Assembly (NCBI RefSeq): GCF_014699005.1
Contig: NZ_JACWZY010000030.1
Span: 1 to 64,000 of the forward strand
DNA: 64,000 nt
Origin: Spirosoma profusum
GTDB taxonomy: Bacteria; Bacteroidota; Bacteroidia; Cytophagales; Spirosomataceae
Direction of reading: 5' to 3'
The position numbers were made by a program, and so were the translations under genes. Shown here one piece after another: positions 37,698 to 59,520 of the stretch (position 1 is its first letter; each line of letters begins with the position of its first letter). Below the pieces are notes generated by a model. The model searched no databases. It was not told where the DNA came from and saw only the letters and a program-made list of their open reading frames with translations.

Positions 37698-38891
37698 ATG
37701 ATTGTTTTCTACGTCTTCTATCTGGTTTTTTTAGGATACATTCTGCTAAACGTATTGTATTGGGCGGTGTTTGCCGTGGCAGGTCGATTAGGGCGGGCCG
37801 ACGATACTGATACGTTGCCCGAACCTTCATCATTTAGAAAAATTGGCGTGCTGATTCCAGCTTATAAAGAAGACGCCGTTATTATTGATTCAGTAACAGA
37901 TAATTTGAAGCAGCAATATCCAGCCGACCGCTTCGACCTGATTGTTATTGCCGATTCTTTTCAGGCCGATACGCTCGCCAAATTAGCGACCTTACCAATT
38001 AAGGTTTTGGAGGTATCGTTCGAAGTATCGACGGTTGCGAAAGCCATTAATTCAGCTTTATCGAGGTTACCGCTTGAGGAATACGATATCCTTGTTGTTT
38101 CGGACGCCGACAATCATATGGCACCAGATTTTCTGAGTCGTATCAACAACGCGTTTGCGCAGGGCTGGAAAGCCATTCAGGGGCATCGGGTTGCCAAAAA
38201 TATTAATACAAGCGTTGCCATTCTGGACGCCGTCAGTGAAGAAATCAATAATCACATTTTCCGGAAAGGTAGCCGGGTTTTGGGACTATCATCGGCAACG
38301 ATTGGGTCTGGTATGGCGTTTGAACCTTCGCTGATGAAATCGGCGATGGCAACCCAACGTACCATGGGTGGCTACGATAAAGAGCTGGAAACTAACGTAG
38401 TGCTTAGCGGCCATAAAATTGGTTACCTGGAGCAGGCTTATATTTACGACGAAAAAGTAGCGCATCGGGCGGTGTTTCAGAATCAGCGTACGCGCTGGAT
38501 TGCCGCTCAGTGGCAGTTTGTTACGTTGTATCTCGGGCGAGGTATCCGTGAAATTTTCAGTGGACGATTTGCAAGCGGTTTCAAGGTGATTCAGGCGATT
38601 GTATTGCCGAAAATTTTGCTGCTGGGTTTGTTACTGCTAGGTTTATTCATTGGCATGTTTACCGGCATCTCGATACTTTGGCTACTACCGCTGGCTTTTG
38701 CGTTAGTACTCGGTTTGAGCCTAGTCATTTCGGTACCTGCTTATTTGTGGAAGCGGATCAGTGTCCGCGAATTTCTCCTGATTCCGATGGTACTGTTTAG
38801 TTTTGTTCGTGCCCTGCTGAATATGCGCAAGGCGTTCAAACGGTTCATGCACACTCCTCATACTGGAAGCCCTAATCCGCAGGGGTCATAA
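37698..38891 (+). CDS. membrane-bound processive-type GT2 glycosyltransferase
   Basis: The 397-residue protein has an N-terminal helix (1-25), a GT-A domain and two C-terminal helices (about 300-355). Motifs for an NDP-sugar polymerising enzyme are visible: IPAYKEDAVI, DAD (SDADNHM near 137), ELETN and QNQRTRW (QxxRW). It is similar to cellulose/chitin/hyaluronan-type synthases. It opens the exopolysaccharide island and probably builds the glycan backbone, but the sugar is not predictable. Confidence 0.85.
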   Translation: MIVFYVFYLVFLGYILLNVLYWAVFAVAGRLGRADDTDTLPEPSSFRKIGVLIPAYKEDAVIIDSVTDNLKQQYPADRFDLIVIADSFQADTLAKLATLPIKVLEVSFEVSTVAKAINSALSRLPLEEYDILVVSDADNHMAPDFLSRINNAFAQGWKAIQGHRVAKNINTSVAILDAVSEEINNHIFRKGSRVLGLSSATIGSGMAFEPSLMKSAMATQRTMGGYDKELETNVVLSGHKIGYLEQAYIYDEKVAHRAVFQNQRTRWIAAQWQFVTLYLGRGIREIFSGRFASGFKVIQAIVLPKILLLGLLLLGLFIGMFTGISILWLLPLAFALVLGLSLVISVPAYLWKRISVREFLLIPMVLFSFVRALLNMRKAFKRFMHTPHTGSPNPQGS

Positions 38892-39199: not shown

Positions 39200-40027
39200 A
39201 TGAATTCGAGTTTTAATAAATTTCAAAGTATCGTTTTTTGTCGGTTTAATTGCCTGCTGTTAGCTGGCTTTTTGTCATTTACGGTATGTCAGGGGCAGCA
39301 AAACCGAGGGGCACGTGGACTTGTCTCGTTTGGGGCTGCATCTGGTCTCGCTGAAGATACACTTTACCTAGATATCAATCAGGACATTGCGGTTCAATTG
39401 TTACCGTTCGATGAGATTGTGAAAGTTGCGGTAGCACACTCACCATTTATTAAATACCAGAATGAAGTTGTTAATGGACTGGATGCTGCTCATTCGGTGG
39501 CGAAAGTACAGATCTTGCAGAATCTATCCGGGTTTGCTAACTATTCGACGGGTGACCAATCGATCATAGGGACTTCAAACCGAATCCAAGGACAGGATGT
39601 CCTCGGGCAGGTTGCCAATGGGTATCGTGTAGGAGTTGATCTACGTTTGCCGATTTACGAACTATTCGGACGAAAACATCAAATACGAATAGCACAGTCA
39701 AATTATAAAGCGGCTGTTCTTCAGAAAGAAACCATTGAGCTTCAACTAAGACGAGATCTGATTGCCGTTTATCAGGATATGATTACGGCGCAGCAACTGC
39801 TGAAAATACGGCTAATGGACGAACAGGCTTCACTGACCGCCTTGCGAGTAGCCGAGGCCGAGTTACAAAAAGGAACTGTTACCGCCGATGCTGTCTCAGT
39901 TATAACCAGTCGCTATGTGCAGGCTAAAACATCTTCCGAGCAGTCGAAAGGTGATTTTCTAAAGAATGTTCATTATTTTGAAGCCTTAACAGGATCGCCC
40001 ATCCAACGACTGAAACGTAATAACTAA
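39200..40027 (+). CDS. half-length TolC-like outer-membrane efflux protein
   Basis: The 275-residue protein has a signal peptide (CLLLAGFLSFTVCQGQ) and one TolC-type repeat: GYRVGVDLRLPIYELFGRKH, then long helices QIRIAQSNYKAAVLQKETIE and MDEQASLTALRVAEAELQKG. Full TolC proteins have about 450 residues and two such repeats, so this is half size. A trimer or hexamer could still form a channel. It is directly followed (5 bases) by the Wzc/GumC-like gene, consistent with a role in glycan export. Confidence 0.75.
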   Translation: MNSSFNKFQSIVFCRFNCLLLAGFLSFTVCQGQQNRGARGLVSFGAASGLAEDTLYLDINQDIAVQLLPFDEIVKVAVAHSPFIKYQNEVVNGLDAAHSVAKVQILQNLSGFANYSTGDQSIIGTSNRIQGQDVLGQVANGYRVGVDLRLPIYELFGRKHQIRIAQSNYKAAVLQKETIELQLRRDLIAVYQDMITAQQLLKIRLMDEQASLTALRVAEAELQKGTVTADAVSVITSRYVQAKTSSEQSKGDFLKNVHYFEALTGSPIQRLKRNN

Positions 40028-40032
40028 CCGGT

Positions 40033-42225
40033 ATGACTATTGAGGTATTTTTTCGCCTGCTGAAACAGCACCTGCTCTGGTTTATTCTGCTGCCCATCGT
40101 GGCGGCTGCGGCTGCTTTTTTTGCTACCCGAAACGAGCCCAAGGTCTACAAATCGCAGGCTACGTTGTATACCGGATTGGTGTCGGGCTATTCGTTGTTG
40201 TCGGATAAACAGAGCATGTTTAACGACCGGTCGGCTAGTGCGATTGATAACATATTGACTACGCTTAGTTCGCGGGAAACCGTTCTGCAAATTGGTATCG
40301 GTCTGCTAACTGATCACATGCGTTTGCGGCAACCTGATACGTTGGTGCTTGGGCCAAAGGGTTATCAGGAATTGCATCAGGCCATAACGGGGGGCTGGGA
40401 GAACCTGTTCTTTATTGCCGCCGATTCGAGCCTGCTTCGTCATACGATTGATAGCCTGGCCAAAGTACCCAACGACAACCCGGTAAAGGCACTGCTGCTC
40501 ACCTCCAATTCCTATTATTCGGTGCAGAATCTAGCTGAAGATATAAAAGCAACTCCGCGTAAGAACACGAACGATATCCTGCTAATGGAATATGAAGCAG
40601 ACGATCCGGCCGTTGCACAGAGTACACTACGTTATGCCATCGAGATTTTAAACAAACGCTATTCAACCCTAAAAACATCCGAAACAAATTCAGTTATAGG
40701 CTATTACGAGTCGAAACTGGAAAAAGCTAAAAATAAACTGGCTCAGGCAGAGGAGAGCCTGCGGGCATTCAGTACGGAGCATCAGGTTCTTGATTACGAT
40801 GAAGAAGCCCGTAACATGGCGTCGGCGCGGGAGTCGATGGGCCGCGAATACAATCAGGAATTATTACGTAAGGATGCTGCCAAAGCTGCTCTGGACGCAC
40901 TGAGTAAGCGGTCGGGTCAGCAAAGTACGGTTCGCATGGCGAACAACGACCTGAATGAAAAGCAGAAAAAACTGACGGAAGCCGAAAATAAACTGGCTAA
41001 TGCGCGTGCGTATGGTCAGCCAAAACAGACAATTGCGCAATTACAGGCCGCTGTTAATCAGGCGTCGGAAGAGTTGAAAATCAGCGCGCAAAAATACGAT
41101 GCCGTAGCGAATACATCTGATGCTGTTCCGAACCAGACCGTGGCTAACGACAAGTTGAACAAATCGCTGGAATTCGAAGAATCGTCGGCTCGGCTGGAAT
41201 TGTACAAGAAACAGATGGATGATTATCAGGCCAAAGCCGACCAGTACGGTCCGTTGGGTACGAGGCTCCGTCAGTTGAAGCGGGATCAGGAAATTGCTGA
41301 AAAAGAGTATCTGGATTTGTTGAACAACGTAGAACAATCGCGGACGCGCCGTCAGGACGTGTCGATTGGCGGTACGCTCGAAATTCTGGATGCTCCTGAT
41401 TTTCCGCTCCTGCCTAAACCGTCGAAGCGTTTTCAGATGATTGCGATTGGCTTTGGTGTAGGGATATTTATCGCCTTACTGCTCACTGCGTTACGTTTCT
41501 GGCTGGATAAACGTATCAATTCGCCGGAGCAGGCCGAGACGATGATTGGTATGCCCGTTACTGCTCTATTTCCAACGGTACGTAAACCGATGGTGTTCAC
41601 AAAAGCTACCCGTGCGGCTCGGAGCATGTTCGAACAATTGTTTAACGCCATCAACATTGAAGTTACCCAGAATACGACCAAGCCGTATCCGCCTATCATT
41701 ACATTGTTCAGCATTCGGTCGAAACAGGGGAAATCCTGGGTATCTAATGGACTTATTGAGCTCTACGAAAAAGCAGATCAGCAGGTAGCGTATTGTTATC
41801 CGCGCGTAACCGGGAAAGAACAAATGGAACGCCGTCATGGAGTTACGCTGTTTCCGTACACCGTTCGTCCCGACTTCATGAACGTAACGGGCATCGATTA
41901 CCTCATCGATTACAGTCATGGGTTCGAAGTCTCCCAATTCGACCGGATTATTCTGGAAATTCCGGCTCTGATTAATAACCAGATTCCTGTTTACCTGCTC
42001 AAAAGCAGCGCTTTATCTTTATTTGTAATAGACGCTAACAGTCCCTGGGCACGAGCCGAAAAGCAATTGCTGAGTATGTACGTGCGTGTTACCAATCAAC
42101 CCATATTGACGGTACTAAACCGGGTTGAAGGAAACTACGTTGATGTTCCCCGTCGGGCTGATGCCATGCCAACGGCTACCCAACAGGAGCGCACCTTGCA
42201 ATCGCAACGTAACGTAATAGAGTGA
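40033..42225 (+). CDS. Wzc/GumC-like chain-length protein with degenerate tyrosine-kinase domain
   Basis: The 730-residue protein has one N-terminal helix (about 12-30), a Wzz domain, a long coiled coil (about 200-430), a second helix (about 467-493) and a cytoplasmic ATPase-like domain. That last domain keeps only a vestige of Walker A (RSKQGKSWVS). The Walker A' motif and the C-terminal tyrosine cluster of BY-kinases are missing. It probably regulates polymer length and export without kinase activity. It lies between the half-TolC and the NRPS genes. Confidence 0.8.
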   Translation: MTIEVFFRLLKQHLLWFILLPIVAAAAAFFATRNEPKVYKSQATLYTGLVSGYSLLSDKQSMFNDRSASAIDNILTTLSSRETVLQIGIGLLTDHMRLRQPDTLVLGPKGYQELHQAITGGWENLFFIAADSSLLRHTIDSLAKVPNDNPVKALLLTSNSYYSVQNLAEDIKATPRKNTNDILLMEYEADDPAVAQSTLRYAIEILNKRYSTLKTSETNSVIGYYESKLEKAKNKLAQAEESLRAFSTEHQVLDYDEEARNMASARESMGREYNQELLRKDAAKAALDALSKRSGQQSTVRMANNDLNEKQKKLTEAENKLANARAYGQPKQTIAQLQAAVNQASEELKISAQKYDAVANTSDAVPNQTVANDKLNKSLEFEESSARLELYKKQMDDYQAKADQYGPLGTRLRQLKRDQEIAEKEYLDLLNNVEQSRTRRQDVSIGGTLEILDAPDFPLLPKPSKRFQMIAIGFGVGIFIALLLTALRFWLDKRINSPEQAETMIGMPVTALFPTVRKPMVFTKATRAARSMFEQLFNAINIEVTQNTTKPYPPIITLFSIRSKQGKSWVSNGLIELYEKADQQVAYCYPRVTGKEQMERRHGVTLFPYTVRPDFMNVTGIDYLIDYSHGFEVSQFDRIILEIPALINNQIPVYLLKSSALSLFVIDANSPWARAEKQLLSMYVRVTNQPILTVLNRVEGNYVDVPRRADAMPTATQQERTLQSQRNVIE

Positions 42226-42329: not shown

Positions 42330-45300
42330 ATGCAGGTCAATAATGACATAGGATTGATGAGTTCCACACCATCGTATATTCACGAATGGGTGGAGCGAAT
42401 TGCCTTTGCTTACCCGTCGAATATCGCCGTTGTATCTGGCGCCCGTTCGCTACGTTATGATGCGCTCAATCGACAGGCCGACGAACTCTGCCAGGCCATC
42501 CTACATACGGCTCCCGAGGCTAAAGTCATTGGCGTGAGCACTACCCGCAGCCTGGAAATGGTTGTTGGTGTACTAGCCATTCTGAAAGCGGGTAAAGCGT
42601 ACCTTCCCCTCGACCCAGCTTACCCGGCTTCCCGACTGGAACAAATTATTGCCGATTCGGGCCTGACAACTTGCCTGGCTACTACGCAGGACGAACAACT
42701 CTTTGCCGATCTGGGAGTTAACGTAGTGGTTTCAGACCGTACGCTTCAGTATACTGAAAAAATCACTACGTCCCCAAATGGCCTTGCCTATGTCCTCTAC
42801 ACGTCCGGTTCAACGGGTAAGCCCAAGGGCGTTTGCATGGGACATAGCCCGCTACTGAATCTGTTGCAGTGGCAGGAAAAACACTCACTGGCAAATACAG
42901 AAACGCGCACGCTGCAACTGGCTCCGCTGAGTTTCGACGTATCGTTTCAGGAGATTTTTGCTACGTTATGTACGGGTGGTACGTTGCTGCTCATCGACGA
43001 AACGCTACGTCTCGATCTGACGGCACTGCTACGTTTCATCGATGAGCAAGCTATCAATCGCTTATTTCTACCATTTGTTGCGCTCCAATATCTGGCCGAA
43101 GCGGCTGTGAGTACGCAACGTTTTCCGGCAGCTTTGCAGGAAATCATGACGGCGGGTGAGCAACTGAAAATCACCCCGCAGCTTGTTGAATTCTTCTCGA
43201 ATCTGTCGGATTGCAAGCTGTTCAATCAGTACGGTCCCACTGAATGCCACGTTGTTACGCAGTTGAAATTAGAGGGACAGCCAAGTAGTTGGCCCGCCTT
43301 GCCGACCATCGGCATGCCCATCGACAACGTAGCGATTTATATCGTAGACGAAAAGTTGGCACTCCTGCCTGATGGACAAGTAGGAGAGTTGTGTTTTGGT
43401 GGAGATTGTCTGGCAGAAGGCTATCTGAATAACTCCACGCTGACGGCCGAAAAATTTATTCAATTATCGATTCCTGGCCAGGAATCGATACGTATCTACC
43501 GCACTGGTGATCTGGGTCGTCAGCTGACGGATGGGAATATAGAATTTCTGGGACGTCGCGATGATCAGGTGAAAATTCGGGGACACCGGGTTGAATTGGG
43601 TGAGATCGAAGTCGTTATCAATCACACTACTGGAATTAAACAGGCTGTTGTGGTGGCGCGTGAGGGCGTTGATGGGACAAAACAACTGGTGGCCTACCTC
43701 GTCTCGGCAACGCACCAGACTGATACGTCGGCACTTCGGCAGGCATTGGAAGCGCGTTTGCCTGAATACATGATGCCTTCGGCGTTTGTGTGGCTGGATG
43801 AATTGCCGAAAACCACCAGCGGCAAGGTTGATAAAAAGCGCTTGCCAGAACCTGAACGGAAACGTCCTGAACTGGAAGTTGCCTTCCGTAAACCCAAAAC
43901 TCAGCTGGAAAAAACGGTGGCCCAGTTATGGTGTACTGTTCTTCAACTTGATAAAATTGGTCTGGATGATAACTTTTTTGAGTTAGGCGGAAACTCCTTG
44001 CTTGCGCAGAAAACCGTAGCTGGGTTAGCCGGTCAACAGTACGTATTGCCGGTAACGAAACTCTATCAGTTTCCGACGGTATCGGGTGTAGTACGTTACC
44101 TGCAACCAGCGAATGAACAGCCTACCCGCGACGTAACGCCTTCGCCGGTGCTACGTTCCGAAACCGCGCAGGGCGACATTGCTGTGATTGGTATGGCTGG
44201 TCGTTTTCCCGGTGCCAGCACGATAGACGCGCTGTGGGACGTACTGAAACAAGGTAAGGAGACAACCCGGTTTTTCACGGAAAATGAGCTGGATGAGGGC
44301 GTTCCGGCAGCTCTCAAAAATGATCCGGCCTACGTAAAAGCGCGAGGTATCATTGATAACGCCGACCAGTTCGATGCATCGTTTTTCGGTCTGTCGCCCA
44401 AAGTGGCGCAACTAATGGACCCGCAGCAGCGCGTTTTTCTGGAAATTGCCTGGGAAGCGCTTGAACAAACCGGTTATCTGCCGCAACAGTACAAAGGACG
44501 AGTTGGGGTATTTGCGGGTTGCGGTAACAATACGTATTACCTGAACAACGTACTGAATAACACCGAATTGGTGAATCAGGTTGGGGCGTTTCAGGTGATG
44601 ACGCTGAACGAGAAAGATTACATCGCATCGCGTACGGCATATCAGTTGAATCTTACCGGGCCGGCGGTCAGTGTTTATTCGGCCTGTTCTACGTCGTTGC
44701 TGGCGATTACGCAGGCGGTTCAGAGTATTCGAGATGGTCAGTGCGAGGTAGCGCTGGCGGGAGGAGCGAGTATTACGACGCCGATACGTAGCGGACATCT
44801 GTATCAGGAAGGTGGTATGTTTAGTGAGGATGGCCACTGCCGCTCGTTCGATGCCGATGCACAGGGAACCGTTTTCAGTGATGGCGCTGGCGTGGTTTTA
44901 CTGAAAAACCTGGAAGCTGCACAACGCGATGGCGATACAATTTTCGCCGTCATTAAAGGGATTGGCGTCAATAACGATGGTGCTGGAAAGGGCAGTTTCA
45001 CCGCGCCAAGTGCTGAGGGACAGGCCGGAGCGATTGCCATGGCGATTGCCGATGCCGGTATTTCGCCAGCAACCATTAGCTACATTGAAGCCCACGGGAC
45101 GGCCACTCCGCTCGGCGACCCTATCGAAATCGACGGACTGGTGCAGGCTTTTGGCGAACAGACTGAAAAACAGTTCTGCGCGATTGGCTCCATCAAAAGC
45201 AATATGGGTCACCTGACGCAGGCTGCGGGCGTAGCGGGTTTCATCAAAACGACGTTAGCGCTGTATCACAAACAATTGCCCGCATCGCTTCATTACAGGC

Positions 45301-48300
45301 AGGCGAATCCGGCCATCGATTTCGCCAACAGTCCGTTTTTTGTCAATACGCAACTTACCGACTGGACGCTACGTAGTGGTCAGGAGAAAACGCTACGTCG
45401 GGCGGGCGTCAGTTCGTTTGGGGTAGGTGGGACTAATGTTCACGTAGTGCTCGAAGAGTTTGCCAGCAACGTAGCGTCGTCCGCTGCAAATTCAGAGGCA
45501 CCACAACTTGTTACGTGGTCGGCGAAGTCGGCGAAAAGTGCCGATGCTTATGCTCGTCAACTTGCTGAAACGCTACGTGCCAACCCGTCGCAGAACGTAG
45601 CAGACGTAGCATTTACCCTGCAAACAACTCGTTCCGATTTTAACCATCGTCGATTCGTTGTTGCAGCCAGCGCAACCGAATTAAGCGATAAATTGCTGAC
45701 GCAGGATGGCCCTGCTGCAGTTCGGTCAAGTCAGGTATCAGCCCAACCGGATGAGGTTGTGTTTATGTTTCCTGGACAGGGTGCCCAATATCTGAACATG
45801 GGGCGCGGCTTGTATGAACATGAACAGGTATTCCGGGCGGCTGTCGATACGTGCGCCGAATTACTGAAAGGCCATCTGGATAAAGACATTCGTCAGGTGA
45901 TGTACTCGGATACGCCTGATTCCGAGTCCGAACAGCTCCTGAAAAATACCCGCTATACCCAACCTGCTTTGTTCGTTACGGAATACGCGCTGGCTACGTT
46001 GTGGATGAGCTGGGGAGTTGAACCAACCATTTTCTGCGGACATAGTATTGGCGAATTTGTGGCTGCGCATCTGGCGGGTGTTTTTTCGCTCGCTGATGCG
46101 CTAACACTGATTGTTGCTCGTGGCCGCATGGTGAGCGGGTTACCACGCGGCAGTATGCTTTCGGTACGTATGGAAGCTCAGAAAGTTGAGGCCATGCTAC
46201 CTGAATCACTGTCGATGGCAGCCATTAATAGCCAGCGGCTTTGTGTGGTGGCCGGTCCCGATGAACACATTGCCGATTTTGCACGCCTGCTCGACGAACG
46301 GGACGTAGCGAATCAGCCATTGGTGACCAGTCACGCCTTCCATTCGTCTATGATGGACCCCATCGTTGATACGTTTACTGACGTAGTGGCTAACGTTTCG
46401 CTGGGACGCCCACAGAAACCAGTTGTATCGACTGTAACGGGCGACTGGCTAACGGATGCTCAGGCCACAGACCCACTTTACTGGGCAACGCACTTACGTT
46501 CGACGGTACGTTTTGCGGATGCCCTAAACACTATTTTTACGCTAGAAAATCCTCTGTTGCTGGAAGCTGGTCCGGGTCAGGTGACGGCTACGTTAGCTCG
46601 TCAACAGGCTGGTAAAAAGGTTGTTACGGTACTGGGTGGGCTGGTTAATCAACCGGATTGGACGGCTGCCCGGCAATCGATGCTCACTACGTTGGGCCAG
46701 CTTTATCTAGGTGGCCTTACTCCCAATTGGAAGGCGTTTTATGCCGGACAAGATCGCCATAAAATAAGCCTGCCTACCTATGCTTTCGATAGAAAATTCT
46801 GCTGGGTAAATCCCGCCAACGTAATACCTGCTACGTCGGTAGGTAGCCTGCCGGAATCAACTGCGGTTAACGTAGTAGAAAAAGATGCAAATCAGTCTGA
46901 AGTAGTACCGGACACCCACTTCATGGCTGCGGGTATGCCAACCCCGTTATCCATTATGAGAAAAGATACCTTACTTAATCGAATTAACTACCTGCTTGAA
47001 GAAGCATCTGGCATTGAGATGCAGGACGTACCAGCCGATAAAAGTTTTCTGGAAATCGGTCTGGACTCATTACTATTGACTCAGGTAGCATTAACCTTGA
47101 AAAAAGAATTCGGCCTGCCGATTACGTTCCGGCAGTTGACGAACGACTATACGTCAACGTCATTACTGGCTGATTATCTGGATAAAATGCTTCCCGCAGA
47201 AGCTAGCCAGCCTACGGTAACGGCAACTCCGGCGGTGGTACCTGTTATGCCCGCTTTACCAGTAGCATTGAATACTACGTCAGCAGGTGGAGATTCGGCG
47301 TTGAGCCTGATTGCTGAACAACTTCAGTTGCTGGCTCGGCAAGTGGCTCTGTTACAGGGAACAACCCCGCAACCAGCTTCTGTGCAGACTCCGGTTGCAG
47401 CACCAGTTGTACCTGTCAACGTTGTTACGTCTCCCAAACTAGCTTTAAAGCCAGCGAGTGATACGGCTGATTTAAGTGCCGAAGAGAAAGCTGAGTTGAA
47501 AAAGCCTTTTGGCGCCACGGCACGTATCGAGCGACAAGCCTCGGGTTTGCCCGTTAAGCAACAGGAATTTATCGACCAACTGACTGAGCGGTATAATCAG
47601 AAAACGGCGAGTAGCAAAGCTTACGCTCAGAAACACCGTTCGCAGATGGCCGATCCGCGGGTGGTATCAGGATTCCGGCCGCAGACTAAAGAACTGGTTT
47701 ATCCATTGGTAGTCAATCGTTCCAAAGGCAGCCGACTGTGGGACATTGATGGAAATGAGTACATCGACGCCCTGAACGGCTTCGGTTCGAATATGTTCGG
47801 CTATCAACCTGATTGGGTAAAGGAAGCCTTACACATGCAAATCGAGCATGGTTACGAAGTGGGGCCACAGCATGAATTGGCGGGTGAGGTGAGCGAACTA
47901 ATCTGCGAGTTAACCGGTGCCGATCGAGCTGCGCTCTGCAACACAGGTTCAGAAGCTGTGCTGGGCGCCATGCGTATTGCCCGAACCGTCACCGGACGTT
48001 CGCTGATCGTGGCATTTTCGGGTTCCTACCACGGCATCGTCGATGAAGTGCTGGTACGTGGAACCAAAAAACTGAAATCATTTCCGGCGGCTCCGGGTAT
48101 CATGCCCGAAGCCGTTCAGAACATGCTGATTCTGGACTACGGAACCGATGAAAGTCTTGCCATCATTCGGGAGCGGGCGCACGAGCTGGCTGCGGTGCTG
48201 GTTGAGCCTGTTCAGAGCCGCCGACCCGAGTTTGTACCCATTGAATTTCTAAAGCAACTGCGAGCCATTACGTTGGAGTCGGGAACGGCGCTGATTTTCG

Positions 48301-49049
48301 ATGAAGTGATTACCGGTTTCCGCGCACATCCGGGCGGCACACAGGCCCTATTTGGTGTCAAAGCCGATCTTGGAACCTACGGAAAAGTCGTCAGTGCGGG
48401 TATTCCGATTGGCGTCATCGCGGGTAAACGGCGGTTTATGGATGCGCTTGATGGCGGCTTCTGGCAATATGGTGATACGTCGGTGCCGGAAATAGGTGTT
48501 ACGTACTTTGCTGGTACGTTCGTGCGGCACCCACTGGCGCTGGCAGCCGCTAAAGCATCGCTGACTTACTTGAAAGAAGCAGGTGCTGAATTACAACAAC
48601 AGCTCACGAAAAAAACGAAACGGCTGGCCGATGCGCTTAATGCCAAATTGGAAAGACATGAACTTCCTCTGTTTGTAGCCCAGTTTGGCTCATTGTGGAA
48701 AATAAAGTTTAAAGAAGATGTGGTTTGTGGTGAGTTGTTGTTTACTTTAATGCGTGAAAAGGGAATACATATCTGGGATGGCTTCCCGTGTTTTCTGACG
48801 ACGATACATACGAACGCAGAAATCGACTTAATTATTCTGCACTTCAGCAACAGCATTAACGAGCTAATAGACGCTGGGTTCTTCAAAGGAAATTCAGCAA
48901 ATACGAATGGAGAAAAAGCAAATGGCTCAACTTTTGTAGATAATGTACCACCGGTTTCAGGAGCCAGATTAGGACGCGATCGAGCTGGAAACCCAGCCTG
49001 GTTTGTTCCCAATCCCGATCAGCCCGGAAAGTACCTACAGGTTGACTAA
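42330..49049 (+). CDS. hybrid NRPS-PKS with aminotransferase (A-PCP-KS-AT-ACP-AMT)
   Basis: The 2239-residue protein is a loading NRPS module fused to one PKS module. A domain, about 20-510: YTSGSTGKPKG near 155, NQYGPTE near 298, GKVDKKRLP near 500. PCP: S556 in ELGGNS. KS, about 615-1050: C786, H922, H961. AT, about 1140-1460: S1239 in GHSIGE, and HAFH at 1335-1338, the malonyl-CoA-type signature. ACP: S1580 in GLDS. Pro/Val-rich linker, about 1640-1730. Class III PLP aminotransferase, about 1735-2190: D1991 in DEVITGF, K2019. A short tail GNPAWFVPNPDQPGKY is like those preceding C domains. No KR, DH, ER or MT was seen, so the beta-ketone goes straight to transamination, as in iturin/mycosubtilin synthases. 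The A-domain specificity residues, read by hand against GrsA, are about D-V-Q-F-M-A-Q-V-V, near the proline code (weak inference). Confidence 0.9.
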   Translation: MQVNNDIGLMSSTPSYIHEWVERIAFAYPSNIAVVSGARSLRYDALNRQADELCQAILHTAPEAKVIGVSTTRSLEMVVGVLAILKAGKAYLPLDPAYPASRLEQIIADSGLTTCLATTQDEQLFADLGVNVVVSDRTLQYTEKITTSPNGLAYVLYTSGSTGKPKGVCMGHSPLLNLLQWQEKHSLANTETRTLQLAPLSFDVSFQEIFATLCTGGTLLLIDETLRLDLTALLRFIDEQAINRLFLPFVALQYLAEAAVSTQRFPAALQEIMTAGEQLKITPQLVEFFSNLSDCKLFNQYGPTECHVVTQLKLEGQPSSWPALPTIGMPIDNVAIYIVDEKLALLPDGQVGELCFGGDCLAEGYLNNSTLTAEKFIQLSIPGQESIRIYRTGDLGRQLTDGNIEFLGRRDDQVKIRGHRVELGEIEVVINHTTGIKQAVVVAREGVDGTKQLVAYLVSATHQTDTSALRQALEARLPEYMMPSAFVWLDELPKTTSGKVDKKRLPEPERKRPELEVAFRKPKTQLEKTVAQLWCTVLQLDKIGLDDNFFELGGNSLLAQKTVAGLAGQQYVLPVTKLYQFPTVSGVVRYLQPANEQPTRDVTPSPVLRSETAQGDIAVIGMAGRFPGASTIDALWDVLKQGKETTRFFTENELDEGVPAALKNDPAYVKARGIIDNADQFDASFFGLSPKVAQLMDPQQRVFLEIAWEALEQTGYLPQQYKGRVGVFAGCGNNTYYLNNVLNNTELVNQVGAFQVMTLNEKDYIASRTAYQLNLTGPAVSVYSACSTSLLAITQAVQSIRDGQCEVALAGGASITTPIRSGHLYQEGGMFSEDGHCRSFDADAQGTVFSDGAGVVLLKNLEAAQRDGDTIFAVIKGIGVNNDGAGKGSFTAPSAEGQAGAIAMAIADAGISPATISYIEAHGTATPLGDPIEIDGLVQAFGEQTEKQFCAIGSIKSNMGHLTQAAGVAGFIKTTLALYHKQLPASLHYRQANPAIDFANSPFFVNTQLTDWTLRSGQEKTLRRAGVSSFGVGGTNVHVVLEEFASNVASSAANSEAPQLVTWSAKSAKSADAYARQLAETLRANPSQNVADVAFTLQTTRSDFNHRRFVVAASATELSDKLLTQDGPAAVRSSQVSAQPDEVVFMFPGQGAQYLNMGRGLYEHEQVFRAAVDTCAELLKGHLDKDIRQVMYSDTPDSESEQLLKNTRYTQPALFVTEYALATLWMSWGVEPTIFCGHSIGEFVAAHLAGVFSLADALTLIVARGRMVSGLPRGSMLSVRMEAQKVEAMLPESLSMAAINSQRLCVVAGPDEHIADFARLLDERDVANQPLVTSHAFHSSMMDPIVDTFTDVVANVSLGRPQKPVVSTVTGDWLTDAQATDPLYWATHLRSTVRFADALNTIFTLENPLLLEAGPGQVTATLARQQAGKKVVTVLGGLVNQPDWTAARQSMLTTLGQLYLGGLTPNWKAFYAGQDRHKISLPTYAFDRKFCWVNPANVIPATSVGSLPESTAVNVVEKDANQSEVVPDTHFMAAGMPTPLSIMRKDTLLNRINYLLEEASGIEMQDVPADKSFLEIGLDSLLLTQVALTLKKEFGLPITFRQLTNDYTSTSLLADYLDKMLPAEASQPTVTATPAVVPVMPALPVALNTTSAGGDSALSLIAEQLQLLARQVALLQGTTPQPASVQTPVAAPVVPVNVVTSPKLALKPASDTADLSAEEKAELKKPFGATARIERQASGLPVKQQEFIDQLTERYNQKTASSKAYAQKHRSQMADPRVVSGFRPQTKELVYPLVVNRSKGSRLWDIDGNEYIDALNGFGSNMFGYQPDWVKEALHMQIEHGYEVGPQHELAGEVSELICELTGADRAALCNTGSEAVLGAMRIARTVTGRSLIVAFSGSYHGIVDEVLVRGTKKLKSFPAAPGIMPEAVQNMLILDYGTDESLAIIRERAHELAAVLVEPVQSRRPEFVPIEFLKQLRAITLESGTALIFDEVITGFRAHPGGTQALFGVKADLGTYGKVVSAGIPIGVIAGKRRFMDALDGGFWQYGDTSVPEIGVTYFAGTFVRHPLALAAAKASLTYLKEAGAELQQQLTKKTKRLADALNAKLERHELPLFVAQFGSLWKIKFKEDVVCGELLFTLMREKGIHIWDGFPCFLTTIHTNAEIDLIILHFSNSINELIDAGFFKGNSANTNGEKANGSTFVDNVPPVSGARLGRDRAGNPAWFVPNPDQPGKYLQVD

Positions 49050-49061
49050 AGCAGATTACGA

Positions 49062-52000
49062 ATGGTGAAAGATAGTACGAACGTAAATCTTGTTGCTGTT
49101 GATTTTGATCCGTTTGCCGGCCCTGAAATTGTCCGCTTGGCACCGTCGACCGAGCCGCAAATTGAAATATGGACAACCTGTCTGTTTGGGGGCGACGACG
49201 CAAACCGGGCGTTTAATGAATCCGTTTCACTACGATTTAACGGTTCGTTAGACCGTCAGGCTTTTGCGCATGCCTGGCAAGCTGTGCTGCAACGTCACGA
49301 AGCACTCCATTCGGCGTTTAGTGCCGATGGAAAACAGATGTGCGTGTTTGATGCCCTCGATGTAGATCTGCTTTATTCCGATTACTCCACAAAAACCAGC
49401 GCAGAACAAGTCCGACTCATTCAGGAATATGTTCAGCAGGACACCTTGTATCTGTTCGATCTGGTCAATGGCCCGCTCATAAAAGGGTGCCTGATTAAAT
49501 TATCGGACACAGTTCACCATTTTACGCTCACAGGTCATCACATTGTCTGCGATGGCTGGTCGTTGGGTATCCTTTTGCAGGATCTGAGTAAGCTCTATTC
49601 GGCCAGCGTTCAACAAAGTGTTCCAAACTTGCCCGAAGCACCGCGCTATAGCGATTACGCGGCTGAACAACAGGCGTTTATGGCTAGTGCTGAACATCGG
49701 CAAGTTGAGAAATTCTGGCTTGATCAGTATCGGGGAAGTGTACCGGTGCTGGATTTACCGACTGATTTTGCGCGCCCGGCGTTACGTACTTACGACAGCG
49801 GACGTAGCGATTACCCACTTGAGGCTTCGCTGGCACTGGCGGTCAAGCAAATGGGTTTGAAAGCGGGCTGTAGCTTTGTTACGACGCTGCTGGCGGCCTT
49901 TGAGGTTTTTTTATGCCGACTTACTGGCCAGAGCGATATTGTAGTGGGGCTTCCTACCGCCGGTCAGTCGGCCACGGGCTATTTAAATTTGGTGGGACAT
50001 TGTGTAAATTTGTTACCGCTACGTAGTTTCCCGCAGCCAGAGCAAAGTTTCCTTCAGTTTTTAAAAGCCCGGAAAGAAGCTGTACTGGATGCATACGAAT
50101 ATCAACGTCTGACGTTTAGCAGTCTGCTCAACAAATTGGCCATCGCCCGTGATCCATCGCGGGTGCCGCTGGTTCCCGTTATTTTTAACGTAGATATGGG
50201 GCTGGACGATGATGTTGATTTCTTCGGACTTACATATAAACTTATCAGTAATCCACGCCAGTTCGGTGCTGTCGATCTTTTTGTCAATATTAGTGGTAAC
50301 GTACCGACAAATGGTTCCGGCGAACCCATGATTATTGAATGGGCGTATAACACTCAGCTATTTAAAGAAGAATCCATTGACCGGATGATGACCGAATTCA
50401 CCCATATTCTGAATGAATTGGTCGGTAACCCGGACGTACTGATTGAGCAGATTCAATTGACCAATCAGCACGAACAGCTTAAAAAGTTAGCCGCCTGGAA
50501 TAATACCAAAGCGGCTTATCCGAAAAATAGCGCGTTACCTGAATTACTGACAAAGGCCGCGAAAGAATATCCCGACAGAACTGCGCTGATTTTCACCAAT
50601 CCGAATACACAACGTCCCACATTAACGTATCGTGAACTGGACGAACTGGCCAATCAGGTGGCGCATGTCATTCAGCAGCATGGCGTTGGCGCAGGTACCG
50701 AACGGCGCGTGGTTGGCGTTATTCTGGATCGCTCGCCCGAAATGCTCATTACGTTGCTGGCGGTCATGAAAGCGGGGGCCGCCTACGTACCGATTGACCC
50801 GGAATATCCTCACGACCGAATTGCGTTTATGCTGGCCGATTCGTTAGCGAGTATGCTCATTACGTCGACCAAATACCACGTAGGAGGTGGTGCTACGTAT
50901 CAGGCGGGTGGTCGATTAACGAATCAGACGACGGTTCTGCTCATCGACGACGTATTAAAATCGCTCGATGGCTTCTCCAAAGAGCTTCCCGAACGTAACG
51001 TTTCGCCAACCGATCTGGCGTATATTCTGTATACATCCGGCTCAACAGGCCAACCTAAGGGCGTATTGATTGAACACCGCAATCTTGTGAATCTGCTGTA
51101 TAGTATGATTCCCTGGCCCGGTATCACCAAAGACGATAGACTGCTGGCGGTCACAACCATTTCGTTCGACATTGCCGGTCTGGAATTATACCTGCCGCTG
51201 CTGGTCGGTGCTACGTTGGTGCTGGCCGATTCGGAAACGACCAAGGATGGCCGGGCTTTGCTTTCCGTCTCGGAAGAACAGCAGATTTCCATCATCCAGG
51301 CGACACCAGCAACTTACAAAATGATGCTGGCAGCCGGTTGGGAAGAGCCATTACCGCTGAAAATCCTTTGCTGCGGAGAGCCACTATCGAAAGATCTGGC
51401 GCAGAAAATCACGGCCCGCTGCGACTCTCTCTGGAATATGTATGGCCCAACCGAAACCACCATCTATTCGACAGGAAAGCAGATTCTGGCCACCGACGAA
51501 ATCATTACAATCGGTCGGCCTATTCAAAATACGCAGGTTTACATTCTCGACGAACAACTGAATCCGTTGCCGGAAGGAGTCGTTGGCGAGATCTATCTGG
51601 CTGGTGATGGCGTGGCGCGGGGCTATCTTAACCGCCCTGAACTGACACAGGAGAAATTTGTGCCGAACCCTTTCGATACGTCGAAAAAGACCAAAATGTA
51701 TCGTACGGGCGACCTCGGTAAATTTATGGGCGACGGCGAAATCCATTGCCTGGGACGTATCGACCAGCAGGTGAAAATTCGCGGGTACCGGGTCGAACTG
51801 GGCGAAGTTGAGCACGCGCTGGTGACTCAGCCGGGGGTTAAAGACGTAGTAGTGATGGCTCGTGAAGATCGCCCCGGCGATCAGCGGCTGGTTGCCTACG
51901 TAGTGACTGACCCTTTCCTGACGGCCGATGCCTTTTTAGCACGAGTACCAACCTGGCGTATCAAGCTTCAGGACGTATTACCGACGTACATGGTGCCGTC

Positions 52001-53162
52001 GGATTTTGTCAGTCTGGAGCAGTTACCCGTTACGCCCAACGGTAAAATAGACCGGAAGGCGCTGCCTAAACCAGCCTCGTTGTTGTCCGAAAAAGGAGAA
52101 CTGGCCGCGCCGGTTACGGATACAGAAAAACTGATTGCCGGTATCTGGGCCGAAGGGCTTGGAATGGAAAAAGTAGGTATCGACAGCGACTTCTTCGAGT
52201 TGGGTGGGCACTCCATGATTGCTGTTCAGGTGATGACGCAGCTTGAAAAAGAGACTGGCCGGCGTCTACCTTTGTCTACGCTGCTCACTTATCCAACCAT
52301 TCGGAAACTAGCCCAGCTTGTTCAGACTGAGGAGCAACCTGCTACGTGGAAATCGCTGGTGCCTATACGACCGCAAGGCAACAAAGTTCCTATTTATATT
52401 ATTCATGGAATTGGCCTAAATCTATTGAATTTCAGTGGTTTAGTTAATTACATGGACCCAGAACAGCCCATTTATGGGTTGCAGGCGCGCGGACTGGATG
52501 GGAAAGAAGAACCGCTCGACAACATGGAGGCCATTGCATCGGCATATCTGGAAGAGGTGATGCAGCAGAATCCCGATGGCCCTTACGCCATTGCGGGTTA
52601 CTCATTTGGAGGATACGTAGCACTCGAAATGGCCCGCCAGATCAAAGAAATGGGCAAGGACGTGAAACTGCTGGCTATGTTCGACACGAACGCACAGGAG
52701 TCGGACAGCCGTCAGGATATGATTAGCTGGATACGACGGAAAATATTCCGACAGTTTCCAAAAATGCTATGGGTTACAAAGTCGTTGCTACGTCATCCGA
52801 TGCTCACCATTCGGTATCAGCAGCAATACGTTGAGCGGCAGGTGAAAGCTCTTTTGCTGGCTACTGGTCTTCAGAAACCACCGGTGGTCGAGAAAGAGTT
52901 CGACCAATTGAACGCCATTATGGAGAAGCACGAGACTGCTTTCTATAATTACAAAATGCGTCCCTACGCCGGTATCGTCGATCTGTTTAAAGCGCAAATG
53001 CGCGTTTATTTCGTAGATGATAATAAGTTCCTGGGCTGGAAAAAATACGCCCTGAAAGGCGTTCGTGTTCATAGCGTTCCCGGCGACCACGAAATGATGC
53101 TCCTTCCCCCCAACGACAAGGTATTTGCCGAAGCTCTGCAGAAAGCGCTGGATAACAGTTAG
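49062..53162 (+). CDS. terminating NRPS (C-A-PCP-TE)
   Basis: The 1366-residue protein starts 12 bases after the hybrid gene. Condensation domain, about 30-450: HHIVCDG motif with H159, H160 and D164. Adenylation domain, about 490-1005: TSGSTGQPKG near 657, NMYGPTE near 792, NGKIDRKALP near 995. PCP: S1051 in ELGGHS. Type I thioesterase, about 1100-1366: S1181 in GYSFGG, H1343 in GDHEMM. The C domain would join the beta-amino intermediate from the first protein to an activated amino acid, and the TE would release it by hydrolysis or cyclisation. The A-domain code, read by hand, is about D-I-L-Q-L-C-M-I-Y, nearest the published glycine code (weak). No epimerase or methyltransferase domain was seen. 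Confidence 0.92.
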   Translation: MVKDSTNVNLVAVDFDPFAGPEIVRLAPSTEPQIEIWTTCLFGGDDANRAFNESVSLRFNGSLDRQAFAHAWQAVLQRHEALHSAFSADGKQMCVFDALDVDLLYSDYSTKTSAEQVRLIQEYVQQDTLYLFDLVNGPLIKGCLIKLSDTVHHFTLTGHHIVCDGWSLGILLQDLSKLYSASVQQSVPNLPEAPRYSDYAAEQQAFMASAEHRQVEKFWLDQYRGSVPVLDLPTDFARPALRTYDSGRSDYPLEASLALAVKQMGLKAGCSFVTTLLAAFEVFLCRLTGQSDIVVGLPTAGQSATGYLNLVGHCVNLLPLRSFPQPEQSFLQFLKARKEAVLDAYEYQRLTFSSLLNKLAIARDPSRVPLVPVIFNVDMGLDDDVDFFGLTYKLISNPRQFGAVDLFVNISGNVPTNGSGEPMIIEWAYNTQLFKEESIDRMMTEFTHILNELVGNPDVLIEQIQLTNQHEQLKKLAAWNNTKAAYPKNSALPELLTKAAKEYPDRTALIFTNPNTQRPTLTYRELDELANQVAHVIQQHGVGAGTERRVVGVILDRSPEMLITLLAVMKAGAAYVPIDPEYPHDRIAFMLADSLASMLITSTKYHVGGGATYQAGGRLTNQTTVLLIDDVLKSLDGFSKELPERNVSPTDLAYILYTSGSTGQPKGVLIEHRNLVNLLYSMIPWPGITKDDRLLAVTTISFDIAGLELYLPLLVGATLVLADSETTKDGRALLSVSEEQQISIIQATPATYKMMLAAGWEEPLPLKILCCGEPLSKDLAQKITARCDSLWNMYGPTETTIYSTGKQILATDEIITIGRPIQNTQVYILDEQLNPLPEGVVGEIYLAGDGVARGYLNRPELTQEKFVPNPFDTSKKTKMYRTGDLGKFMGDGEIHCLGRIDQQVKIRGYRVELGEVEHALVTQPGVKDVVVMAREDRPGDQRLVAYVVTDPFLTADAFLARVPTWRIKLQDVLPTYMVPSDFVSLEQLPVTPNGKIDRKALPKPASLLSEKGELAAPVTDTEKLIAGIWAEGLGMEKVGIDSDFFELGGHSMIAVQVMTQLEKETGRRLPLSTLLTYPTIRKLAQLVQTEEQPATWKSLVPIRPQGNKVPIYIIHGIGLNLLNFSGLVNYMDPEQPIYGLQARGLDGKEEPLDNMEAIASAYLEEVMQQNPDGPYAIAGYSFGGYVALEMARQIKEMGKDVKLLAMFDTNAQESDSRQDMISWIRRKIFRQFPKMLWVTKSLLRHPMLTIRYQQQYVERQVKALLLATGLQKPPVVEKEFDQLNAIMEKHETAFYNYKMRPYAGIVDLFKAQMRVYFVDDNKFLGWKKYALKGVRVHSVPGDHEMMLLPPNDKVFAEALQKALDNS

Positions 53163-53241: not shown

Positions 53242-53346
53242 TTGCTTACGCGAGGGGCTTCGACAGGCTCAGCCTGACAGTCAACTTAAAGTCCTTAATC
53301 GAATTGACTGTCAGGTTGAGCCTGTCGAAGCCCCTCGCGTAAGCAA
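53242..53346. repeat. 43-bp inverted repeat (gcttcgacaggctcagcctgac family)
   Basis: Arms 53242-53284 and 53304-53346 pair at 42 of 43 positions plus one G-T wobble, with a 19-base loop. The inner arm matches the element at 17885-17993; the outer arm (ttgcttacgcgagg) does not. It lies between the NRPS gene and the convergent SHOCT gene. Confidence 0.9.
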
Positions 53347-53379
53347 TATATAGACTTATCCATAATTCACACTACGTCC

Positions 53380-53419
53380 TAAACTTAAAAAGGGAGGCTA
53401 GCTTCCCTTTTTAAGTTTA
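53380..53419. terminator. bidirectional intrinsic terminator
   Basis: Arms 53380-53395 and 53404-53419 are perfectly complementary over 16 bases (taaacttaaaaaggga) with an eight-base loop, A-rich on one side and T-rich on the other. It overlaps the stop codon of the SHOCT gene and could end both convergent transcripts. Confidence 0.75.
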
Positions 53420-54302: not shown

Positions 54303-55796
54303 TTATAACGCCTGTCGATACGCTTTCAACTCGGACAACGAAAGTTTATAAAGCAGCGTAAGAACAGCATACGTAGCGCCCCCGAGGCAGATTTCTATGA
54401 TGGTATTGAACGTACCGGTATTGCCAACAAGTGATTTATAAGCCCAAACAACACCAATCATAATTAGGCAGAAGAGGAACGGTTTGGCAAAGTTTTTCAG
54501 GAAATTGCCCATAAACTCGCCGATCAATGAATGGGCAATCGCAAAATTGGCCACCATATTCAGGAACGTTGACAGCATGAATGCCACCGCAATACCCGTA
54601 ACGCCCCACCACGTACCAAAAAAATAGACCATCGGAATTTTTACGACCAGCGTTCCCAGGTTCAGGTAGAACAACAGACTAGGTTTCCCTTTCGTAAAGG
54701 CAAGTGTATACAGCGGGTGACTCAGACAAGCGAAAAGTCCGACAAAGACAAAAAACTGGATAAGTTCGATTGTCTTTTCCCAACCAGGTCCGTAAATCAT
54801 CGGAACAACGCTGTCGGCCGTAATGAAAAGTCCGGCTAGCAGCGGCATGTTGCAATAGCTGATGAAATCCAGAATTTTCAGGTACGACTTTTTCAGTTCG
54901 GCATTGCTGTCTTTCATCTTTGCCAGAATAGGGTAAGCCACCTGTAAAATAATTGGGTTGAGTTTGGTGATTGGGAAAACCGAGAGTTGGTACGCAATGG
55001 TATAATAACCCAACATTTTGACACCCAGCATCCCCCCAATAAAAATGTTGTCGGAATTGAACTGAATAAAGCTTAAAATTCCCTCTCCCATATTGTAGAT
55101 CCCAAACCGGAGGTGGTCCTGGGCGGCTTTCAGTTTAAAGAAGAAAGCTGGTCTGAACAGTGAAAAACCAAAGGCAATTTGCAGCGTCGACTTCACCGAC
55201 TGGGTAACCAACGTACCGATGATGAGCGATAATTCGTGATAACCACTGTAGGCTAATACGACAGTTGTGATCGTTCCAATAACGCTGGCCCCAATGTCGA
55301 TACAGGCTACCGAGCGGAACCGCAACTCCTTTTCGAGCAGAAACATGTATAACTGCCCAAAATAACCCACTACAAAATAATAGGAAGATATATTCAGTAC
55401 GTGTGCTAGCTTCGGTTCGTGGTAGAAGGACACGATGAAGGGCGAACTAAGGTGCATCAATACGTATAAAGCAACCCCAATCAGCAGATTTAGGTAGTAG
55501 AGTGTCGATAGTACGTTACGGTCGCTTTCCTGCCTGTAAATGATGGAATTCGAAAAACCCAGATTCGAGAAAAGCTGGAAAAACGAGATGATCAGGTTAC
55601 TGATACTCACTATACCAAAATCGGAAGGGTCCAGAATGCGGGCTAGTACGGCAACCTGTAGAAATTGAAATAAGGTCGAAATAACCGTGGAAAGTGTGAT
55701 CCACTTCCCGCCGTTCATTGCTTTCTGGGTGTTACTCATTTCAGTACTAGGTTGACGAACTTTTTTAGCTGGACTTTTATACGTAATGCCTACCAA
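54303..55796 (-). CDS. MOP-superfamily polysaccharide flippase (Wzx/WzxC-like)
   Basis: The 497-residue protein has about 14 hydrophobic helices and family blocks ARILDPSDFGIVSISNLIIS (near 52) and YTIAYQLSVFPITKLNPIIL. It belongs to the polysaccharide transporter group that flips undecaprenyl-linked repeat units across the inner membrane. Its place next to GT and Wzc-like genes supports a role in the same glycan pathway. Two in-frame Met occur early; I kept the longer form (start 55796), but the start may be at 55739 (MSNTQKAMNGGKWIT). Confidence 0.88.
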   Translation of the reverse strand: MVGITYKSPAKKVRQPSTEMSNTQKAMNGGKWITLSTVISTLFQFLQVAVLARILDPSDFGIVSISNLIISFFQLFSNLGFSNSIIYRQESDRNVLSTLYYLNLLIGVALYVLMHLSSPFIVSFYHEPKLAHVLNISSYYFVVGYFGQLYMFLLEKELRFRSVACIDIGASVIGTITTVVLAYSGYHELSLIIGTLVTQSVKSTLQIAFGFSLFRPAFFFKLKAAQDHLRFGIYNMGEGILSFIQFNSDNIFIGGMLGVKMLGYYTIAYQLSVFPITKLNPIILQVAYPILAKMKDSNAELKKSYLKILDFISYCNMPLLAGLFITADSVVPMIYGPGWEKTIELIQFFVFVGLFACLSHPLYTLAFTKGKPSLLFYLNLGTLVVKIPMVYFFGTWWGVTGIAVAFMLSTFLNMVANFAIAHSLIGEFMGNFLKNFAKPFLFCLIMIGVVWAYKSLVGNTGTFNTIIEICLGGATYAVLTLLYKLSLSELKAYRQAL

Positions 55797-56964: not shown

Positions 56965-57711
56965 ATGTACTATTCAACAGTATCCTGCGCATCGATCGAA
57001 CATGTTACGTGGCTTACCGAAACGGAATGCCACTTTGATGACGACGTAGCGGTATTTAGGTTTCGCTTGCCCGATACGTTCAGTACGTGGGCATGGGAAG
57101 CTGTTCTGTCTCCAGATGAGCGGGTAAAGGCAGAACGCTATTACCGACTACAGGACAGGCAGCGATTCAGCTACGCCAGAGGATTACTCAGGATTCTGGC
57201 CGGAAAATATACCGATCAATCCCCAAACAGCATCCAGTTTACACTTAGCTCCATGAAAAAACCAGAATTAAGTGGAGCAACGGGTTGGCATATTAACGTA
57301 TCGCACGCGGGCCAGTGGGTGTTGCTGGCTTTTGCCCGTGAGCCTGTCGGGGTCGATATTGAGCAGGTAAACGATACGTTTTCCTGGCAAGATATTGTTC
57401 AGCAGAGTTTTAGTCGACAGGAGCAGGAGCAACTGGCGGAGACACCGGATGCCCGACATCAGTTTTATGAATTATGGACGCGAAAGGAAGCCCTTCTCAA
57501 AGCTACTGGTAAAGGTCTTGACGACGATTTTGCAAAAATTCCCTCATTGAAAGGCATCCATTCCGTACGAAATGACGTATTGGGAGAAACCGATTCGTGG
57601 TCAGTACTGAGCTTTCCGACGGTAAATGATTATCTATCAGCGGTGGCTTATCGACCGAGATTAAAATTCCCTAAATTTTTTTCTATCGATAGTGGCTATT
57701 TAGAGCATTAA
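56965..57711 (+). CDS. Sfp-type 4'-phosphopantetheinyl transferase
   Basis: The 248-residue protein transfers phosphopantetheine from CoA to the serine of carrier domains. Signatures are VGVDIEQ (D131, E133) and ELWTRKEALLKATGKGL (W171, K174, E175, K179), the Mg2+/CoA site. The pseudo-dimeric length (about 230-250) is that of Sfp enzymes for NRPS/PKS. It is the natural activator of the PCP and ACP domains at 42.3-53.2 kb, and lies in the same island. The divergent gap upstream (56849-56964) is AT-rich and probably holds both promoters. Confidence 0.9.
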   Translation: MYYSTVSCASIEHVTWLTETECHFDDDVAVFRFRLPDTFSTWAWEAVLSPDERVKAERYYRLQDRQRFSYARGLLRILAGKYTDQSPNSIQFTLSSMKKPELSGATGWHINVSHAGQWVLLAFAREPVGVDIEQVNDTFSWQDIVQQSFSRQEQEQLAETPDARHQFYELWTRKEALLKATGKGLDDDFAKIPSLKGIHSVRNDVLGETDSWSVLSFPTVNDYLSAVAYRPRLKFPKFFSIDSGYLEH

Positions 57712-58881: not shown

Positions 58882-59520
58882 ATGTCGCTAAAAAAATACA
58901 TTGACGACCGACCAGCCCTCAAGCAGTTCGTACACCGGCTGCTGATTCCCTCGGGTCAGGCCCGCCCGCGCCGATGGGTGAATTGGTTCGTAAATCCGTT
59001 TGTGCATCAGCGCCATCGTACGTCAATTGTTCGGTCGAGTGTTCGGATGGACGTACTGCCCTTCAACCCGTTCATGTTGGGTGCTCAAAGCATAATTGAT
59101 GATTTTAGTGTAGTCAACAATGGCGTTGGTAGTGTTGAGATTGGAAGCAATACGTTGGTGGGCATCGGGAACGTAGTAATTGGCCCGGTTACTATTGGTA
59201 ACAACGTAATAACCGCGCAACACGTCGTATTATCCGGCCTGAACCACGTCTACGAAGACGTACATAAACCCATTCGCGATCAAGCCGTTACCCGACATCG
59301 AATTATCATTGAGGACGATTGCTGGATTGGTGCTAACGTAACGATAACGGCTGGTATTACTATTGGTCGCCATGCAGTGGTAGCCGGAGGCAGCGTAGTC
59401 ACGCGCGACGTACCAGCTTATACAATAGTAGGAGGTAACCCTGCCCGAATCCTGAAATATTATGATGCGCAGGTGGGAGAGTGGGTAAGCGCCAAAAAAT
59501 CAGCCGATTTACCTGTGTAA
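58882..59520 (+). CDS. hexapeptide-repeat O-acetyltransferase
   Basis: The 212-residue protein has a left-handed beta-helix with repeats from about residue 70 to 195: IGSNTLVGIGNVVIGPVTIG, DDCWIGANVTITAGITIG and HAVVAGGSVVTRDVPAYTIV. The ending GGNPARIL is typical of the WcaF/NeuD/Lac-type acetyltransferases. The N-terminal 70 residues are an accessory region. It probably O-acetylates an EPS sugar. A terminator follows at 59571. Confidence 0.85.
   Translation: MSLKKYIDDRPALKQFVHRLLIPSGQARPRRWVNWFVNPFVHQRHRTSIVRSSVRMDVLPFNPFMLGAQSIIDDFSVVNNGVGSVEIGSNTLVGIGNVVIGPVTIGNNVITAQHVVLSGLNHVYEDVHKPIRDQAVTRHRIIIEDDCWIGANVTITAGITIGRHAVVAGGSVVTRDVPAYTIVGGNPARILKYYDAQVGEWVSAKKSADLPV

Follow-up and report, generated by a model that had tools for sequence, protein, structure and literature searches.

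In the mycosubtilin/iturin synthetase MycA, a class-III aminotransferase (AMT) follows an unreduced polyketide synthase (PKS) step and precedes a nonribosomal peptide synthetase (NRPS) module, and the puwainaphycin synthetase PuwE of Cylindrospermum has the same succession of PKS module, AMT and NRPS module, as far as described in the available parts of PMC4219810. For OA858_07105 of Pseudanabaena galeata CCNP1313, the available parts of the published description predict a valine unit, a malonyl extension, a GSA-type AMT, NRPS modules and a thioesterase (TE) (PMC11356792). A comparable line, encoded by two genes here termed P1 and P2, was analysed in a window of 64,000 nucleotides from Spirosoma profusum (positions 1 to 64,000 of contig NZ_JACWZY010000030.1). 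It is intact and widespread; its domains are all of known types, whereas their combination is unusual. With a probability of about 60 %, P1 and P2 would convert an alpha-amino acid to a diamino acid of the vicinal (3,4-) type, to which a second amino acid would then be coupled.

P1 (42330..49049, 2239 aa), a hybrid NRPS-PKS-aminotransferase, and P2 (49062..53162, 1366 aa), an NRPS termination module, are forward-strand open reading frames (ORFs) separated by a gap of 12 bp. The coordinates and domain order that the initial annotation had given for them were confirmed by the ORF list and by Pfam and NCBIfam matches. P1 comprises adenylation (A1, 42393..43826; AMP-binding, AMP-binding_C and TIGR01733), peptidyl carrier (PCP1, 43914..44102; PP-binding, residues 529-591, GGNS at 553), ketosynthase with a C-terminal extension (KS, 44175..45662; residues 616-1111, ACSTS at 785), acyltransferase (AT, 45759..46712; residues 1144-1461, GHSIGE at 1237 and the malonyl-type motif HAFHS at 1335), acyl carrier (ACP, approximately 46962..47159; second PP-binding stretch around GLDS at 1577) and class-III AMT (47604..48860; lysine at 2019) domains. 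P2 comprises condensation (C, 49158..50477; HHIVCDG at 159), adenylation (A2, 50550..52046), peptidyl carrier (PCP2, 52131..52322; LGGHS at 1047) and TE (52392..53102; GYSFGG at 1179) domains, and YGPTE is found in the A domains of both proteins. The Pfam matches to AMP-binding, both PP-binding stretches, ketoacyl synthase, acyltransferase and class-III aminotransferase in P1, and to Condensation, AMP-binding, PP-binding and Thioesterase in P2, all exceeded the curated cut-offs. The catalytic motifs expected of the KS, AT, carrier, AMT, C and TE domains are all present, as the initial annotation had held, and neither the AMT nor an A domain shows signs of inactivity, which it had named as refuting its reading. 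NRPS and type I PKS modules, carriers and a TE thus occur in one line, which with two A domains, one C domain and one TE falls short of a multimodular cyclic lipopeptide synthetase. The whole host genome, of 8.73 Mb, in which the window takes up bases 1-64000 of contig 23, has two condensation domains.

The predicted chemistry follows this domain order. A1 would load an alpha-amino acid, probably proline, onto PCP1, and KS and AT would add one malonyl unit. Ketoreductase (KR), dehydratase (DH) and enoylreductase (ER) families are absent from the Pfam matches of both proteins, in line with the initial annotation, so the ACP-bound beta-ketone would be transaminated directly by the AMT, giving 3-amino-3-(pyrrolidin-2-yl)propanoyl-ACP in the case of proline. 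A2 would load a glycine-like residue, to which the C domain of P2 would join the diamino unit, and the TE would release a small dipeptide-like acid or lactam. Both substrates, the action of the AMT before condensation, the mode of release and the product are predictions from the two proteins. The idea that the product resembles negamycin was considered and dropped.

The best match of the AMT to a solved structure was MycA (PDB 6kfu, E 4.9e-123; other MycA entries 6kfm and 6kfr), and the next kind of structure matched was glutamate-semialdehyde aminomutase (E 1.7e-49). With its lysine present, the domain is a MycA-type AMT of the kind found in iturin-type synthetases, as initially annotated. 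Across a survey of 147 P1 and 129 P2 proteins, YGK of the AMT was found in 145/147 P1, the remaining two retaining the lysine, and HAFHS of the AT was found in all 147; the C motif was found in all 129 P2.

An AMT of this type raises the possibility of a fatty or aryl acid as the substrate of A1, in which case the line would make an ordinary beta-amino lipopeptide. We consider this highly improbable, because A1 matches the amino-acid adenylation model AA-adenyl-dom (TIGR01733) with 376.7 bits against a cut-off of 317.4 and retains the code aspartate, and because the starters of relatives carry codes that we take to be canonical for amino acids. A fatty-acyl ligase (FAAL) starter was rejected on the adenylation-model score and the amino-acid-coded clade described below, and the amino-acid starter proposed in the initial annotation was retained. 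Its hand-read codes, DVQFMAQVV for A1 and DILQLCMIY for A2, were reproduced. The resemblance to proline and glycine codes had been called loose, which understates the case for A1, since it agrees at 7/9 positions with DVQFIAHVV, which we take to be the proline code.

DVQFMAQVV is the starter code in 35 of the 74 starter domains counted among the named loci, defined as the best 80 of 560 relatives (70-86 % identity) from a named-genome scan. In a midpoint-rooted FastTree phylogeny of 251 distinct A-domain segments, all 79 DVQ-coded domains, including A1 of the window, fell in one clade of 102 (support 0.992). This clade also contains what we presume to be proline codes, with 9/9 agreement in A1 of L179 and in P2 of L129 (DVQFIAHVV), together with DVQYIAHVA in A1 of L180. 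These codes and the tree suggest that the substrate of A1 is probably proline. A single-sequence structure prediction of A1 (mean pLDDT 33.7) was unusable and supports nothing.

Other relatives carry starter codes that we take to indicate Thr (DFWNIGMVH), Asp (DLTKIGHIG), an Asn-like residue (DATKVGEVG) and Val (DAFWLGGTF), in addition to DPEHVAKIS and DAEQCGKVN, which have no assigned residue. Group-mean identity of A1 to the window was 61-70 % in the DVQFMAQV[VI] group and 34-38 % in the Thr, Asp, Asn-like, Val and unassigned-code groups (33-38 % over the groups with other codes), whereas over all code groups KS remained at 61-80 % and AMT at 71-87 %; a genome represented by both a named and an unnamed locus was counted with both copies in these means, and 17 proteins had no code. 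Since A1 identity drops with the code while that of KS and AMT stays high, the simplest reading is exchange of the starter A domain on a retained KS-AT-AMT chassis. Asp- and Val-coded starters adjoin P2 domains of like code in the leaf order of the tree.

For the second module, the 74 counted A2 codes in the named loci included DILQLGMIW (17), DILQIGVVW (8), DILQIGVIW (7) and DILQLCMIY (7), with minority codes of Asp, Val, DVQ or unassigned type. The DILQ-type codes are read as glycine-like, and DILQLCMIY in the window looks like a drifted glycine code. In L064, whose P2 has 1754 aa, a methyltransferase is inserted in the C-terminal portion of A2, and other P2 of about that length are assumed to carry one also; the window P2 is without one.

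Several observations weigh against conversion of proline to a diamino acid and its coupling to glycine. All substrate codes were judged against presumed reference codes; two residues of A1, M at 299 and Q at 322, do not agree with that for proline, and A2 likewise differs from that for glycine at two positions. The class-III AMT family is broad, and AT identity to the window (group means of 50-76 %, lowest in the Asp group at 50 %) is less even than that of KS and AMT. The motif patterns missed some relatives, and few of the misses were inspected; they matched the KS cysteine in 139/147 P1 (the cysteine was kept in the 4 of 8 misses inspected), the first carrier in 130/147, GLDS of the ACP in 97/147 and the KS histidines in 118/147 and 62/147, and in P2 the TE serine in 115/129 and the TE histidine in 122/129. 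The two A1 departures would also suit another hydrophobic or cyclic amino acid as substrate, with the same chassis and a different product, and 23 domains of the A1 clade carry non-DVQ codes with no assigned residue, DAQFIGVVW and DAMNIAMVC among them. The full proline code is nevertheless reached within that clade, and this alternative is considered possible with the odds somewhat against it.

The logic of the initial annotation, an amino-acid starter with unreduced malonyl extension, beta-transamination, a second amino acid and TE release, remains the best reading, and its interpretation overall is partly supported. It had not mentioned that the P1-P2 pair, far from being a single case, is part of a widespread operon with a phosphopantetheinyl transferase (PPTase), or that the Spirosoma copies are embedded in an exopolysaccharide cluster.

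AMT domain matches were found in 30/36 genomes of the genus (E <= 1e-60), 56/222 genomes of the family (E <= 1e-90) and 28/395 genomes drawn from the class (E <= 1e-180). The named loci belong to Spirosoma, Larkinella, Fibrella, Fibrisoma, Rudanella, Hymenobacter, Puia, Pedobacter, Mucilaginibacter, Parapedobacter, Ferruginibacter, Flavobacterium, Gelidibacter and Flavipsychrobacter, plus less exactly named Bacteroidota. The architecture is not due to chance, since it recurs in relatives from many species. P2 directly follows P1 in 73/80 named loci and is fused to it in 2/80 (L125, L131); three lack an adjacent P2 (L107, L119, L167) and two end before a whole P2 (L145, L171). In two fused Spirosoma copies (L052, L053) the tail motif of P1 is retained and the head of P2 comes after it, so the order of the line is fixed with P1 before P2. 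An Sfp-type PPTase, which would arm the carriers, directly follows P2 in 45/80 named loci and is encoded in the window at 56965..57711 on the forward strand (Pfam ACPS). This adjacency and spread point to a widespread Bacteroidota operon. Promoter and terminator scans were near the shuffle level (25 vs 25.5; 26 vs 21.9, SD 4.7) and uninformative on co-transcription. Between P2 and a SHOCT gene, inverted repeats were observed at 53242-53346 (43 nt, 98 % complementary) and 53379-53420 (21 nt, terminator-like).

The conserved pairing bears on whether P1 could offload alone, the starter amine attacking the thioester and closing a lactam of the 4-aminopyrrolidinone type (1-aminopyrrolizidinone for a proline starter) while P2 acts on another substrate. 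Formation of a five-membered lactam should be chemically easy, and an adjacent P2 is missing at ten loci with a Thr-coded P1 (L040, L054-L059, L072, L076, L080). The prevalence of adjacent or fused P2 in the named loci argues against this, as do Thr-coded P1 of Pedobacter with an adjacent P2 (L165, L166), and we regard it as distinctly improbable. One of the ten, L040, is a further P1 of the host genome itself (contig 11, 221058-222311), with a GNAT acetyltransferase before it; a lone P2-like protein of this genome lies on a different contig (L060; contig 10, 35317-36627). In genome G010, a Thr-coded P1 is present and no P2-like condensation domain was found. A more distant AMT (48 %) lies in frames of ~4240 aa in two Spirosoma genomes (G034:C20:10228-11496; G017:C1:585327-586601), apparently another, larger hybrid synthetase. 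P1 and/or GNVR homologues are split over several frames in Spirosoma telluris (L024, L093) and three other loci (L041, L048, L051), reflecting either decay or sequencing error. Cupin_8 hydroxylase-like genes lie near P1-P2 in three loci (L113, L131, L021), the first of which also has an amidase and a Polysacc_synt flippase; a role for these genes in tailoring or export is possible.

The genes surrounding P1-P2 in the window are those of a Wzx/Wzy-dependent exopolysaccharide cluster. On the forward strand upstream of P1 are a GT2 glycosyltransferase (37698..38891), a short protein with a single OEP stretch (39200..40027) and a GNVR/Wzz-like chain-length protein (40033..42225; GNVR score 23.4, below the Pfam cut-off of 27.7), the GNVR and OEP assignments being partial matches. 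Downstream of P2, along with the PPTase and a CHU_C protein, are a Wzx-type flippase (54303..55796, reverse strand; Polysacc_synt), a hexapeptide-repeat transferase (58882..59520, forward strand), two GT4 glycosyltransferases (61063..63416, reverse strand) and a Wzy/O-antigen ligase-like gene lying partly in the window (63413..63928, reverse strand), all by Pfam. Beyond the window, two GT2 genes and a sugar transferase were matched by phmmer to the seeds (L081). The order OEP-GNVR-P1-P2 was found in 28/36 Spirosoma genomes, counting the window and 27 further loci, of which three have split genes. None of the other 8, two of which are only 71 and 82 % complete, showed a relative of GNVR above 47 %. 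In two Fibrella loci (L187, L188) P2 follows GT2-OEP-GNVR, with P1 diverging nearby in L187, and in six loci (five of Mucilaginibacter, one unclassified) a sugar transferase, OEP and a Wzz-like AAA protein lie behind the PPTase. Short proteins with a single OEP stretch also recur beside P1-P2 in differing clusters (L113:79-717; L141:18284-18967). A record named Flavobacterium sp. SUN052 (L109) shows the GT2-OEP-GNVR-P1-P2 arrangement seen in Spirosoma (56-62 % identity), which reflects either transfer or a contaminated assembly.

This setting raises the possibility that in Spirosoma and its relatives the TE, or an acyltransferase of the cluster, attaches a beta-amino dipeptide to the exopolysaccharide, which would make the slime cationic. 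Polysaccharide genes were detected by phmmer in 55/80 named loci, 2/13 further loci and 1/20 control stretches, but the seeds were drawn partly from the same loci, the Spirosoma loci share ancestry and 16/20 control stretches came from the window's own family. An unseeded Pfam scan agreed, finding GT2 (10), flippase (6), OEP (6), Cupin_8 (5) and sugar transferase (3) among 105 neighbours from 18 loci, and GT4 (4) and none of those five families, among the 25 families shown, in 107 control proteins from 20 stretches. No polysaccharide genes surround P1-P2 in 11/13 further loci (including all 6 of family f11), 3/5 Hymenobacter loci and 2/8 Larkinella loci, and because some lineages lack them the P1-P2 unit does not depend on these genes. 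The link to polysaccharide is a real one of gene location and, at the level of function, a putative one; linkage does not equal attachment, no dedicated transferase was identified, and attachment is considered unlikely. Similarly doubtful is a broader proposal of a Bacteroidota-wide, exchangeable-starter line for a family of vicinal diamino (amino-homologated) acids, the product being built onto or into polysaccharide in Spirosoma, Rudanella, Fibrella and Mucilaginibacter.

Should the predicted logic prove right, the line, common in environmental Bacteroidota, would represent an enzymatic way, evolved in nature, of making vicinal diamino acids out of ordinary amino acids, and its relatives a natural record of the starter A domains that the chassis tolerates, useful for engineering. 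The recurrent polysaccharide-gene setting raises the question of whether nonribosomal amino acids are attached to slime or released with it. NRPS-PKS hybrids made up 12 % of clusters in one survey of Pedobacter (PMC12181424) and hybrid clusters 17 % in another (PMC10609062), and neither, in the available parts, names a product for a hybrid of this kind. In the literature drawn on, in the parts available (PMC4219810, PMC11356792, PMC9248904, PMC10609062, PMC12181424), with subscription papers outside the search, no product was found for the P1-P2 system. Paper searches gave nothing on these A-domain codes, Pedobacter NRPS-PKS AMT lines, a corresponding line in Mucilaginibacter, vicinal diamines, dolaproine with an AMT or capsule with NRPS, and the Spirosoma papers listed do not, by title or opening of the abstract, deal with this line.

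Relative to known systems, the P1-P2 line differs from that of MycA in its starter, a fatty acid introduced by a fatty-acyl ligase in MycA and an amino-acid adenylation domain in P1, and in being limited to two building-block modules that end in a TE. The dolaproine unit of dolastatin 10, formed from proline and one PKS unit, carries a methoxy group at the beta carbon; the extension of proline is common to both, and for P1-P2 an amine is predicted at that position instead. PuwE differs in its fatty-acyl starter, monooxygenase and long cyclic lipopeptide, according to the available parts of PMC4219810. The initial annotation had considered an AMT directly after an amino-acid starter unusual, but an AMT following an amino-acid unit had already been predicted in the cyanobacterium P. 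galeata. By its published description, as far as available, the OA858_07105 line is the nearest precedent found for an AMT acting after an amino acid, and differs from P1-P2 in starting with a C domain and in comprising three proteins with further modules (PMC11356792).

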